Below, one piece after another: positions 31,309-36,120 of a stretch of DNA of 64,000 nucleotides. The DNA is from Gemmatimonas sp. (GTDB taxonomy: Bacteria > Gemmatimonadota > Gemmatimonadetes > Gemmatimonadales > Gemmatimonadaceae): NCBI GenBank assembly GCA_025361705.1, contig JANYJW010000021.1, positions 1-64,000 of the forward strand. Direction: 5' to 3'. Position 1 is the stretch's first letter, and every line of letters starts with the position of its first letter. The position numbers and the translations under genes were made by a program. Below the pieces are notes generated by a model that was given only the letters and a program-made list of their open reading frames with translations, searched no databases and was not told the DNA's origin.

Positions 31309-32892
31309 TTACTTGGGGAGTTGTGCAACAGTTTGACGAACCTCGCATCGGGGGGTAACAGGAGGGGGTTCGGGCGGCATCCGGAGCTTCATGCTTCCCG
31401 CCCCGCCGCCGCCCTCGAAGGCATGGGCCGCCCGCAGCGCCGTTTCGGCCTCGACGTACGTCCCGAAGGGAATCCGCGCCGTGAATGCCTGCGCGTACTC
31501 CAGCACCTCAATGAGCGCGTCGGGATACTGCGTCCGCGAAAGCGCGCGGAGTCCGGTGAGGTACTCCTCGCGGTACACCGTGGGAATCAGCAGCCGCTGC
31601 TCGCCGCCCGCAGAGAGTTCGGCGTTCATCAGGGCGCGCGCCACGCGCCCATTGCCATCGGTAAACGGATGGACCTCCGCGATCACGAATTTCAGCAGGA
31701 CCGCGCGCGAGAACGCGTGATCAAGGCTCTGCGCGAGTTCGACCCCGTAACGCAGCGTGCCCGACACGAGCGCCGGTGCCACAAAGGGCGTGGCACCCGC
31801 GCGATTCGCGAGGCGCTTGAATTCGCCGGGAAGCGCAGCGGGGCGCAGCGCCATCAGGTCGGCATGTGCACGCCGCATCCGGTCGAGGTAGGCATCCACC
31901 GACTTGGTGTCAAGCACGCCGACGGCCATCCACAGCGGACTGCCCACGAGCCGGTATGTGCCGAGCACGTCGTGGGCATCCTGCGGCCGCTGGGCCGGGA
32001 TCTTTCCCTCAAAGACGATCTGCCGCGCCTCGTCTACCTCGAACTCCGTCCCCTCGATGAAATTTGAGAAGTACGCGTCGAAGAACGACAGCACCCGAAA
32101 TGCCTCCAGGGAACCGACGCGCTCGGGGCGCGACCCCACCGGCCGTTGGCGGAGCGCGGCGTGCAGCGTGTGGAACAGGGCGATGCGGCCAGGATCGTAC
32201 GGCTGACCCGACACGTGGGCGCGCGCCACACCCGTCGCGAGCGGCACGTTGCGCGTGCCCAGAAGCGTCCCGATGATACCGTCGAGAATGGCAAGGGCGT
32301 CGACGGCATCGAGCGCGGGTGCAATGGCGCGCGCCTGATCCCGAATGGCATTGAGCCGCTCCTCGCCCGCGAGTTGCAGTTCGCGACTCAGGTACTCCTC
32401 TGCCGTGGCGCGCGAGATGGCGCGTGACGTGTGCGCGCCACGCGTGCGGGTGAGCGTCAGCCCCTCGAGCAGGAGCCGCGGCCGCGAGGCGAGAAAGAGC
32501 GAGGCGATGTAGGACTGGTCGCCGTCGAGTGGACCGGGGCCGCGTACGACGCGAATCGTCAGGCCGGGAAGCGCGATGATGCGCACGGCCGGCGCCACCA
32601 CATATACGGTGCCATCATCCGCAGGCCGACCCTCAAAGGCGGTGCGGTAGCTCACCACCGCGCCGGGCACGCACAGGCCGACGAGGTGCCACAGATGACG
32701 GCGGACAACATCAGCCGGATTGGAACGCACATCAGTCGTGTACAGCCGCGGCCCGATCTTCCGCACGCGCCCCTGTGACGCCAGCGCGCTCACACGGTTG
32801 GTGATAGCGCTGGTGCTCAGGAAGACCTCGGGAAGATCGGCTACGGGATCTTTCGCGGCCGGACGGATATTGGCCTGATCTTTTCTCTCCAT
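31309..32892 (-). CDS. Fic-domain protein with AbiEi-like N-terminal winged helix
   Basis: The Fic domain has HPFTDGNGR (His408), the motif of AMP-transferring enzymes that modify target proteins. SNFIEG at 276-281 fits the (S/T)xxxE(G/N) inhibitory motif with Glu280, N-terminal to the Fic core as in class II Fic. The first 200 residues look like an AbiEi-type antitoxin: a winged helix (VSALASQGRVRKIGPRLYTT) and a following VVSYRTAFEGRP plus LFLASRPRLLLEGL segment. The protein is thus probably a self-regulated toxin or signalling enzyme. ATG at 32892 lies 7 nt after a TATCAT hexamer. No separate antitoxin gene is adjacent. Confidence 0.85.
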   Translation of the reverse strand: MERKDQANIRPAAKDPVADLPEVFLSTSAITNRVSALASQGRVRKIGPRLYTTDVRSNPADVVRRHLWHLVGLCVPGAVVSYRTAFEGRPADDGTVYVVAPAVRIIALPGLTIRVVRGPGPLDGDQSYIASLFLASRPRLLLEGLTLTRTRGAHTSRAISRATAEEYLSRELQLAGEERLNAIRDQARAIAPALDAVDALAILDGIIGTLLGTRNVPLATGVARAHVSGQPYDPGRIALFHTLHAALRQRPVGSRPERVGSLEAFRVLSFFDAYFSNFIEGTEFEVDEARQIVFEGKIPAQRPQDAHDVLGTYRLVGSPLWMAVGVLDTKSVDAYLDRMRRAHADLMALRPAALPGEFKRLANRAGATPFVAPALVSGTLRYGVELAQSLDHAFSRAVLLKFVIAEVHPFTDGNGRVARALMNAELSAGGEQRLLIPTVYREEYLTGLRALSRTQYPDALIEVLEYAQAFTARIPFGTYVEAETALRAAHAFEGGGGAGSMKLRMPPEPPPVTPRCEVRQTVAQLPK

Positions 32893-32899
32893 AGCACAA

Positions 32900-32928
32900 A
32901 TGATATGGATAAATGGCAGCGAGAGCAA
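32900..32928 (-). promoter_or_regulatory. candidate promoter of the Fic gene
   Basis: On the minus strand TTGCTC (32928-32923), 17-bp spacer, TATCAT (32905-32900). The -10 is 7 nt before the ATG, so the mRNA is probably leaderless. The stretch is locally AT-rich compared with its surroundings. Confidence 0.5.
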
Positions 32929-33627: not shown

Positions 33628-34008
33628 TTACGCCGGCTCGGTGGAGCCAGTGACCGGCACCGCCGCGCGCACCTTCTTTTCCTTGATGCGGGTGGCCTTG
33701 CCGGTGAGCTCGCGGAGATAGAACAGCTTGGCACGACGCACGCGACCGCGGCGGATCACGCTGATGCTCTCGAGCATCGGCGAATGCAGCGGGAAGATGC
33801 GCTCGACACCCACGCCGTTGCTGATCTTGCGCACGGTGAACGTGGCGCTGACGCCCTCGCCCTTGCGCGCAATCACCACACCCTCAAACGCCTGCACGCG
33901 CTCCTTTTCCCCTTCCTTTACCCGCACGTTCACCTTGACGGTGTCGCCGGCGCGGAACGGAGGAACTTTGCGCATCCACTCTTTTTCGGTTTCGCTGAAC
34001 GTATGCAT
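33628..34008 (-). CDS. rplS: 50S ribosomal protein L19
   Basis: Ribosomal protein at the 30S-50S interface. Family signatures include [51 protein letters not shown] and [19 protein letters not shown]. At 126 residues it is slightly long because of a short Ala/Val-rich tail. In many bacteria it follows trmD directly; here an ATPase gene is in between, and a good promoter lies before rplS, so rplS-rnhB can be expressed on its own. Confidence 0.97.
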
Positions 34009-34049: not shown

Positions 34050-34078
34050 AAGTTATCCGGGTGAGGGGATAAGGTCAA
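34050..34078 (-). promoter_or_regulatory. sigma-70-like promoter of rplS-rnhB
   Basis: On the minus strand TTGACC (34078-34073), 17-bp spacer, TAACTT (34055-34050). It is placed about 42 nt before the rplS start and is the best -35/-10 match seen in the window. Confidence 0.6.
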
Positions 34079-34116
34079 GCGGTGCAATTGGTTGGGTGGG
34101 GGGGGCCATGGACCCG

Positions 34117-35343
34117 TCACTCATACTCGCTGGTCGGTGAGGCCAGGTGCGTGACGGGCAGTGGCAGGCCCATGTCCGGAACGGCGTGCTTGAGCACCCA
34201 TCCCCGGACAAATGGGTCGTCAAAGGTGTACCCCGACCCGTGCGCTGTCCTGATGACGACGCCGTCCGTCACAAGGCGCGCAACCGTCTTGCTGATGCTG
34301 CCCGACTGCTCCAGCGCGAATCGCCCGCGCGTCGCTGCGGTGGTGAGCCCCTGCGAGGACGCCGCCACCGCGCGCATCACCTTCTGCTGCACGCCGGACA
34401 GTTGCGCCCACCAGCGTTGCGTGCTGTCGGCCTCTTCGTCGATGATCTCCACATACGCCGCATCGACCGAGGTCACGTCCACGCGCGGATCCACGCCGGC
34501 CCGGTCCACGCACTTGCGCGCCAGGCGGATGATGTCGCGCGTTCGTGCGCCCACCAGCGTGACGCAGCGCGCCCCCGCCTCCTCAGGGGCGAGTCCCGAG
34601 GAGCGCATGCGCTCGTCGATCCATCCGGCCAGATGGCGCGCATCAATGGGCCCGAACGGGCAGCGCTCGAAGAGCTGGTAGAACGCCCGCCCCTTGGCCT
34701 GCATCGCCTCGAGGAGCGCCAGATGGGACCCGGCTACGACATAGCTCACGTGCGAGTGCTTCTGGATGACGCCCCGCAGATGCCACTCGGCGGTCTCGCC
34801 GAAGCGGCTGAGCTCCTGAAACTCGTCGAGGACCACGCCGAGGACGACCTGCTGCCTCGCCGCCAGCGCGTTGAGGCTGTCGAGGACGTGGCCGAGCGAG
34901 GCCTGCTGCACATCCATGCTTTCCTGCCGCAGTGCGACGCTGAAGCTCGGGACCGTGAGCCCCGTCAGCGGGTCGGGGGCAAGCGACAACTGCGTCTGCA
35001 GCCGCGCCACGAGGTCGCGCACCAGGGTGGTCCAGCGGCGGCCGGCGGCCTGCGTCGCGCCAGCCAGAAGCCGGTTGGACAGGTCGACCAGCGAGGTGGC
35101 GGTCGAGAAATCAGCGAGGAAGGCATGCCCCCCCTTCGCATTGATCGTCGCCACGGCCCGCTCGAGCACCGACGTCTTGCCGGTGCGGCGCACGCCCGCC
35201 ACGAGCAGCTTGCCACCGGGCTCCCGCAGCGTCCGGAGGCACCGCTTGAGTTCCCGCTCACGATCGGTGAAGAACTCGCCCGACACGGTCCCGCTGATGC
35301 GGAACGGATTGTCGGCGGCACGGGGCCGGGCACGGGGAACCAT
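34117..35343 (-). CDS. AAA-type ATPase with C-terminal winged helix (archaeal ATPase/MNS group)
   Basis: Walker A AGVRRTGKTSV at residues 49-59 (Lys56), Walker B VVLGVVLDEFQEL around 157-169, and an arginine-bearing VGARTRDIIRLAR segment. The last 110 residues look like a winged helix (LSGVQQKVMRAVAASSQGLT, VARLVTDGVVIR). This is the layout of STAND/MNS ATPases, whose roles are often unknown and sometimes linked to defence or mobile DNA. ATG at 35343 has GGAGG four bases upstream; the ATG at 35355 is less well placed. It splits the normally contiguous trmD-rplS gene order and is preceded by an AT-rich inverted-repeat element. Confidence 0.8.
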   Translation of the reverse strand: MVPRARPRAADNPFRISGTVSGEFFTDRERELKRCLRTLREPGGKLLVAGVRRTGKTSVLERAVATINAKGGHAFLADFSTATSLVDLSNRLLAGATQAAGRRWTTLVRDLVARLQTQLSLAPDPLTGLTVPSFSVALRQESMDVQQASLGHVLDSLNALAARQQVVLGVVLDEFQELSRFGETAEWHLRGVIQKHSHVSYVVAGSHLALLEAMQAKGRAFYQLFERCPFGPIDARHLAGWIDERMRSSGLAPEEAGARCVTLVGARTRDIIRLARKCVDRAGVDPRVDVTSVDAAYVEIIDEEADSTQRWWAQLSGVQQKVMRAVAASSQGLTTAATRGRFALEQSGSISKTVARLVTDGVVIRTAHGSGYTFDDPFVRGWVLKHAVPDMGLPLPVTHLASPTSEYE

Positions 35344-35359
35344 GGGGCCTCCCATTCGT

Positions 35360-35431
35360 TACTGTCAAAAACGCCACTATCTAAAGAGATAGTAAATCAG
35401 GGCACTTTGAATAGTGTACAATCTGACAGTA
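35360..35431. repeat. AT-rich element with inner hairpin and outer inverted repeats
   Basis: Outer arms TACTGTCA (35360-35367) and TGACAGTA (35424-35431) are exact reverse complements. Inside, ACTATCT-AAAG-AGATAGT (35376-35393) is a 7-bp hairpin. The composition is clearly AT-rich in a GC-rich genome. It lies upstream of the ATPase and downstream of trmD. It could be an operator, a promoter region or the remnant of an insertion. Confidence 0.75.
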
Positions 35432-35457
35432 TCACCGGCAAGCCCCGCCGCCCCAGC

Positions 35458-36120
35458 TCAGCCTCCGGCCCCATCGCGGTCCCGCGTCAGCCGCTCCCCC
35501 TCGGCCTTGCGCCACTTCTCGATCTCGGCATGGTGCCCCGACAGCAGCACGTCCGGCACCACATGCCCCCGGAACTCCGGCGGCCGAGTGTAGCTGTGCG
35601 CCGAGAGGCCGCGCCCGTAGAACGAGTCGCCGCGCGCGCTGTCGAGGTCGCTCATCGCCCCGGGGAGCAGCCGCACCACCGCGTCGACGATGCAGAGCGC
35701 GGCGGGCTCGCCGCCGGACAGCACGAAATCGCCGAGGGACAGTTCTTCGGTGGCGAGGTGATCGGCCACGCGCTGGTCGACGTCCTTGTAGTGGCCGCAG
35801 AGCAGCGTGAGCTCGCTGCCGGCCGCAAAACGCTCGGCGTCGGCGTGGGCAAACACCTTGCCGCGCGGCGAGAGCAGGACGATGGGCGCCGTGGCGCCCA
35901 GCGCCTCGACGCACTCGAAGAACGGGCCGGGCTTCATCACCATGCCGGCGCCGCCCCCATACGGATAGTCGTCCACCGTGCGGTGCCTGTCGTGCGTGTA
36001 GTCGCGCAGGTCGACCACGCGGTACGTCACGCTGCCCGCCTCGGCCGCCTTGGACGGAATGCTCAGCGCGAGCGGTCCGGCGAAGAACTCGGGGAAGATG
36101 GTGACGATGTTGATCTTCAC
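35458..36120 (-). CDS. trmD: tRNA (guanine-N1)-methyltransferase
   Basis: Methylates G37 of tRNAs next to the anticodon, preventing frameshifts. Visible signatures are INIVTIFPEFF at the start, DDYPYGGGAGMVM at about 52-64, LLCGHYKDVDQRV, and the knot region LSLGDFVLSGGEPAA. GTG at 36120 is chosen because it overlaps the rimM stop (GTGA) and starts exactly at the conserved N-terminus; the longer frame to 36333 is an antisense-like Arg-rich extension. At 220 residues it lacks much of the C-terminal extension of some family members. Confidence 0.95.
   Translation of the reverse strand: MKINIVTIFPEFFAGPLALSIPSKAAEAGSVTYRVVDLRDYTHDRHRTVDDYPYGGGAGMVMKPGPFFECVEALGATAPIVLLSPRGKVFAHADAERFAAGSELTLLCGHYKDVDQRVADHLATEELSLGDFVLSGGEPAALCIVDAVVRLLPGAMSDLDSARGDSFYGRGLSAHSYTRPPEFRGHVVPDVLLSGHHAEIEKWRKAEGERLTRDRDGAGG

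Follow-up and report, generated by a model that had tools for sequence, protein, structure and literature searches.

Archaeal Orc1/Cdc6 proteins combine an AAA+ ATPase with a winged helix, and origin repeats lie beside their genes. MarR-type repressors such as HosA and AdcR act at short palindromic operators and repress their own genes. A link between an ATPase of the archaeal SSO1545 kind and promoter binding comes from IniR of mycobacteria, in which an SSO1545-like ATPase domain is reported to be fused to a DNA-binding domain, so that such an ATPase can serve as a promoter-binding regulator (PMC5760070). A second study includes 19 COG1373 genes, from a group of predicted AAA+ ATPases, among those transferred in gut bacteria (PMC10782964). 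The annotation of such genes is only "ATP-binding protein". Here we analyze one of them in Gemmatimonas sp. (contig JANYJW010000021.1, positions 1 to 64,000; this whole stretch of 64,000 nucleotides is referred to as the window), together with its relatives and the DNA in front of them.

Results

An ATPase gene separates trmD from rplS

On the minus strand of the window the genes run rpsP, rimM, trmD, ATPase, rplS, rnhB and Fic, which confirms the original prediction of an AAA ATPase gene between trmD (ending at 35458) and rplS (33628-34008). The gene spans 1.2 kb, and the features of the locus are as follows.

34117-35343, stop codon included, minus strand: gene for an AAA+ ATPase with a predicted C-terminal MarR-like winged helix (open frame; Pfam AAA_16 and ATPase_2 below cut-off; family profile matches 2fna, 2qen and MarR-type proteins)
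35348-35353, minus strand: GGGAGG, likely ribosome-binding site, read from the sequence
34096-35457, minus strand: maximal extent of the insert, relative to the empty junction of L081
34051-34078, minus strand: rplS promoter-like motif TTGACC-N16-ATAACT, seen by eye and found too in congeners without the ATPase

The frame is open from an ATG at 35355 to the stop codon at 34117-34119; the ATG at 35343, with GGGAGG in front, looks the likelier start, and this GGGAGG is probably the gene's own ribosome-binding site, as had been proposed. The AT-rich element described upstream is also present (35356-35440, by eye), against a GC content of about 0.65-0.71 in surrounding 500-base segments. In size the insert barely exceeds the gene and this upstream array, and neither target duplication nor terminal repeat was seen by eye at its edges when compared with the empty L081 junction.

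It had further been proposed that the rplS promoter restores independent expression behind the inserted gene. A strict promoter scan did not list the motif at 34051-34078. rplS was found in nine of the ten other genomes of the genus, and in all nine CTTGAC can be seen by eye at a matching position in front of it; a second element reads ATAGCTT in six and is a variant in three (L085, L087, L088). Because a similar motif precedes rplS in all nine congeners, ATPase-less ones included, the insert did not create it; the putative promoter is older than the insert, and the proposed restoration was not borne out.

The conserved trmD-rplS order assumed in the original prediction held in part. The two genes are adjacent in five of the nine congeners (L081, L082, L085, L088, L089), or five of the eight with a readable junction, but in three (L090, L091, L092) another gene breaks the order; in L093 the junction reaches the contig end. 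At none of the eight readable junctions did the ATPase query find a match. The intervening gene of L090 (5633-6808) encodes a subtilisin-like protease of 391 aa with GTSMATPH, which we take to be a subtilisin motif; L091 and L092 have a gene with a similar end at the same place, and GTSMATPH is also visible at a gene end in L084 and L086. From this subtilisin-like gene and the similar gene ends elsewhere, the junction is judged to have taken in unrelated genes more than once. Long repeat-rich stretches were seen by eye in the trmD-rplS spacers of L085, L088 and L089. After rnhB, a Fic-domain gene (31309-32928) had no match in the 10 other genomes of the genus and may be another recent gain; a relative, 46% identical, lies in the flank of the ATPase homologue L069.

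The ATPase is patchily distributed and gained in this lineage

At E ≤ 1e-10, homologues occur in 45 of 395 genomes of the phylum (own genome counted), nearly always as one copy, and the window ATPase itself occurs only once in its own genome at E ≤ 0.001. Nine congeners were part of the phylum search: eight lack a homologue, and G031 has one (L068), on another contig and with 31% identity to the window ATPase. In a tree of 80 rows (L065, L074 and L076 left out) L036 and L037, from the same taxonomic family, form a group with the window gene (100/99), far from L068, so the only other copy in the genus belongs to a different lineage. Genes trmD, rplS, rimM, rpsP and rnhB were found in the fetched flanks, some of them short, of none of the 48 other homologue loci. 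Together with the eight ATPase-free congener junctions, the patchy occurrence agrees with the proposed acquisition by transfer, with the gain at this site in this lineage. The foreign composition that a codon-use check might have revealed did not appear: the gene has a GC3 of 0.875, and 43 long ORFs from the window, uncurated, have a median of 0.852. Against transfer the original prediction had set the case of an ATPase at the same place throughout the phylum with native composition; the composition is indeed native, but the location is not shared. Such composition is compatible with an old event or with transfer among related hosts.

Nine plasmid records and one phage record carry a homologue, all below 60% identity, and two scans of viral contigs gave no relative of the ATPase. 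One member, L182, lies on a Bacteroides plasmid; it is preceded by TAAT-type repeats and has a gene for a site-specific integrase as its neighbor. A fixed partner gene was considered and rejected: neighbor ORFs within 5 kb of the homologues form five clusters of at least three loci, the largest with 11 loci at scattered places, two merely reflecting the orthologous loci L040-L042 and two others with three loci each, and no neighbor keeps a constant place.

The protein combines an SSO1545-like core with a predicted winged helix

The STAND/MNS-like identity given in the original prediction is well supported at the level of the family. A profile of 44 members matches SSO1545 (2fna) at E 5.5e-16, whereas the window protein alone reaches E 0.013, and it matches the Pyrococcus abyssi Walker-type ATPase (2qen) at E 5e-14 with the match extending into the C-terminal part. 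Against Pfam ATPase_2 the window protein scores 24 bits, under the gathering cut-off of 33.2; a match at E ≤ 0.01 is present in 41 of the 44 members. All 44 aligned sequences keep Walker A with RR-GK, Walker B DE and a C-terminal P and W (R52, G55, K56, D173 and E174 of the Walker motifs are invariant), and an NPF near the start is almost as general.

The 44-member profile also matches the MarR-type winged helices of 2d1h, HosA (E 0.008) and AdcR (E 0.0093). MarR_2 is found in 12 of the 44 members, the window protein not among them. A poor structure model of the window protein (mean pLDDT 58.3, built from five sequences) has helices and two short strands at 317-386 at low confidence, and Foldseek on this model (TM ~0.3) puts archaeal Orc1/Cdc6 near the top after 2qen, which we take as a hint only. 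By these profile matches, the window protein is predicted to end in a MarR-like winged helix.

The AT-rich element of the window fits a repeat array

The AT-rich element fits a type of operator-like repeat array that is seen again in front of other family genes, a feature that the original prediction had missed. The candidate boxes are listed with their positions relative to the gene and their agreement with GATA-N-TATC.

35358-35366, minus strand, -23: GACAGTAAC, 6 of 8
35373-35381, minus strand, -38: GATAGTGGC, 6 of 8
35388-35396, minus strand, -53: TTTACTATC, 6 of 8
35425-35433, minus strand, -90, off the 15-bp register: GATACTGTC, 7 of 8
35376-35393, no strand assigned: palindrome ACTATCT-N4-AGATAGT, with no second exact copy in the genome

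The palindrome has one further genomic site, with two mismatches. In blind tests the window promoter reached only 12 of 16 in the array statistic, and its inverted repeat had p 0.067. When the half-site GATA of the sister gene L037 is used, the promoter shows three boxes in strict 15-bp register, at -53, -38 and -23. GATA ranks first of 256 half-sites for this promoter, with GTTA close (18 vs 17), and its score was reached by none of 5000 shuffles, in a test that was not wholly blind, the window repeats having been noticed beforehand. The window array is thus a weak example, convincing only with the half-site of its sister.

Repeat arrays recur in promoters of the family

The architecture that recurs across the family is a series of 9-bp palindromes (4-N-4), set at intervals of 15 or 14 bp within the promoter of the gene itself. 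We modeled it as two 9-bp boxes, each 4-N-4, with four like half-sites and a score out of 16, a statistic chosen after inspecting the first 48 promoters, so that the two later Bacteroidales sets serve as later tests; start codons were chosen by script. The first set held 44 promoters of the window's phylum (window included) and four of Bacteroidales. Inverted repeats in these 48 are stronger (mean 8.0) than those of 552 upstream control regions (5.9), and exact direct repeats of at least 6 peak at 15-bp spacing (15 loci vs 2.2 expected). A score of at least 14 was reached at spacing 15 by 21 of 48, against 1.9 from 250 sampled controls, and at spacing 14 by 7, against 1.7.

Homologues were present in 69 of 247 genomes of a Bacteroidales-order sample. 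Among 36 Bacteroidales promoters, including two duplicates below threshold (L100 and L104, copies of L033 and L035), 16 passed at spacing 15 (1.45 expected), 7 at spacing 14 (0.97) and 11 at spacing 30 (0.72), the last corresponding to a third box. In 40 further Bacteroidales promoters, 17 passed at spacing 14 against 3.6 from shuffles, and 13 at spacing 15 against 2.55. There was an excess too at spacing 12 (36-promoter set) and 18 (both Bacteroidales sets), which may come from overlapping half-sites.

With all promoters combined, 46 of 122 have a strong array, scoring at least 15 at spacing 14 or 15 (1.27 from shuffles), and 26 reach 16 (none in shuffles), counts that overstate independence in that kin genes of the ATTA, GTAT and CTTA groups repeat the same array. 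A score of at least 15 is seen in 0 of 117 downstream flanks and in 6 of 1141 and 2 of 149 control upstream regions; at score 14 the downstream flanks lie somewhat above expectation (14 of 117 vs 5.73), and 47 of the 122 family promoters stay below 14. Rows dropped were L074, with its upstream region cut, and L097, L098 and L114, copies of L032 and L034; L100 and L104 were dropped from the 122-promoter count, the half-site comparisons and the TAnnTTTG analyses described below. Examples of arrays, with the spacer in bp between boxes, are:

L040: CTTACTAAG-6-CTTAGTAAG
L055: GCTAGTAGC-6-GCTACTAGC
L056: TCGGTCCGA-6-TCGGACCGA
L070: GCATCATGC-5-GCATTATGC

Repeats also precede the Vibrio copies, left out of these counts, and in one case they have a 14-bp spacing and score 14. 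In L181 (2320-2450) a distant Vibrio relative lies just after nrdA-nrdB, with TAGTGTCTAACTT repeated at 14 bp in front, a hint that the arrays reach a third phylum. An open-access literature search gave nothing on such arrays among the matches listed, a weak sign that they are new.

Half-sites differ between lineages and arrays are nearly private

Half-sites vary between lineages and close kin tend to share them; in a comparison that covered only 46 of 83 loci (score at least 14), half-sites were similar in 77% of pairs more than 60% identical in the AAA part and in 1% of pairs at 30-40%. There are 27 distinct first half-sites among 46 strong arrays. Over the 46 compared loci, half-site similarity correlates no more closely with the winged helix (Mantel r 0.344, partial r 0.14) than with the AAA part (0.339 and 0.13). 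Avoidance between co-resident copies gave no sign either, as 1 of 31 within-genome pairs shares a half-site and 23 of 710 between genomes.

Full arrays are almost confined, within the genomes searched, to the position before their own gene. The exact ATTA array is found at one place in each of five genomes, 50-62 bp before the matched frame, and the CTTA type at one place in each of four carriers and in neither of two non-carriers. With one mismatch allowed, the GTAT type stands before the gene in three of four genomes (none in G621), with one additional near-match in G567. The short CGGWCCG pair is also seen at other places, and its counts of 0, 4, 3, 3 and 2 are close to the 1, 4, 2, 2 and 2 of a reversed-pattern control.

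We then place the arrays relative to TAnnTTTG, which we take to be the Bacteroidetes -7 consensus. This motif occurs in 60 of 78 Bacteroidales family promoters; control upstream regions have it in 27 of 222 cases and shuffles in 11%, a control that supports the promoter reading of the arrays. It is near all 28 strong Bacteroidales arrays. Ten of these are centered 23-28 bp before it and six lie 14-17 bp after it; the other 12 are outside the two commonest positions, some of them 40-65 bp upstream, a position open to an activator as well. Most of the positions around TAnnTTTG would suit a repressor.

Discussion

We consider it probable that the window carries a self-contained, horizontally spread ATPase of the SSO1545/MNS type that uses a private operator to repress its own promoter. 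The C-terminal MarR-like winged helix would bind the 9-bp palindromes (4-N-4, at 15- or 14-bp spacing) whose private array lies at the gene's own promoter, and the bound ATPase would repress its own gene; nucleotide or a ligand would release it. Gene and operator would move together into intergenic sites, here that between trmD and rplS. The insertion, the family-wide architecture, the near-privacy of the arrays, their promoter position in Bacteroidales and the predicted winged helix are read from the sequences themselves, and from them we infer the rest: the ATPase as the binder, repression as the effect of binding, and release by nucleotide or a ligand. Our best guess for its cellular role is a sensor switch.

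That the private operator merely keeps quiet a solitary defense gene, whose ATPase senses an invader and harms the cell, seems to us doubtful, if worth keeping in mind. Patchy occurrence, a single copy in most carriers and the lack of a fixed partner would suit such a gene, as would weak PADLOC matches in members (mad8 in 8 of 44, PDC-S01 models in at most 7, PDC-S27 in at most 4) and the nearby Fic gene, found in none of 10 congeners. However, the window protein has no PADLOC match at 1e-3 (its matches are weak: mad8 E 0.0038, PDC-S01 E 0.0085), its PHROG match is weak (E 0.00097) and to a family of unknown function, and no toxic or nuclease domain is among the Pfam families listed for the 44 members. 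With no neighbor gene at a fixed place either, the link to defense or mobile genes made in the original prediction is not supported on the defense side. Should the array instead serve as a site of transposition or as its target, with the ATPase in a helper role, the unconserved locations and an insert little bigger than gene plus array would follow from a minimal transposable unit; strong arrays, however, are one-sided (46 of 122 upstream vs 0 of 117 downstream), which makes transposition via the array unlikely, no terminal repeats or target duplication were seen at the window junction, and no transposase family is among those listed for members. We regard this as quite improbable.

The combination of AAA+, winged helix and adjacent repeats also recalls an initiator-like module such as Orc1/Cdc6 or an integrated iteron replicon, and the Foldseek result from the poor model points the same way, but Cdc6/Orc1 is absent from the 23 Pfam families listed for the 44 members, the arrays are located at promoters, and plasmid or phage matches are few; we give this very little weight. 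It would be just as surprising if the arrays were leader RNA structures, for instance attenuators, rather than DNA operators. Some do give long perfect hairpins, such as the 20-bp arms in L056, but most strong Bacteroidales arrays lie upstream of or over TAnnTTTG and so would escape transcription, and direct repeats of self-palindromic boxes are common.

For the autorepressor that we favor, a wider reading can be put forward tentatively. The solitary AAA+ ATPases might form a large family, spread over at least two phyla, of wandering self-silencing genes with private operators read by their own winged helices, their specificities diversifying like phage immunity groups and their helix-to-half-site code readable. 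Putative pairs of recognition helix and half-site include GTPRNVSKNK with GTAT, SSANVSIVK with ATTA, and KSTVSSAL with TCGG or CCGG. The arrays supply each ATPase with a testable DNA target and suggest that the family consists of self-regulating DNA-binding proteins. Natural pairs of winged helix and operator would be a data set for a recognition code and for building orthogonal repressors, and the reason for the spread of solitary ATPases becomes accessible to experiment.

Among known systems, the MarR-type repressors HosA and AdcR resemble the family in the winged helix that its profile matches (E 0.008 and 0.0093), but they are without an ATPase part, and we know of no MarR-type repressor with a modular 4-N-4 array at 14- or 15-bp spacing. 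Orc1/Cdc6 proteins share with it AAA+, a winged helix and gene-adjacent repeats, along with the Foldseek match of the poor model, but their family is not one of those listed for the 44 members. IniR differs in its 818 aa, its MalT-like middle domain and its regulation of another operon, as reported (PMC5760070). No report of private operator arrays was found for SSO1545 or 2qen, the arrays described here being known from bacterial members, and the window protein stays under the Pfam ATPase_2 cut-off; nonetheless, these archaeal ATPases of the ATPase_2/MNS kind have their AAA+ core in common with the family.
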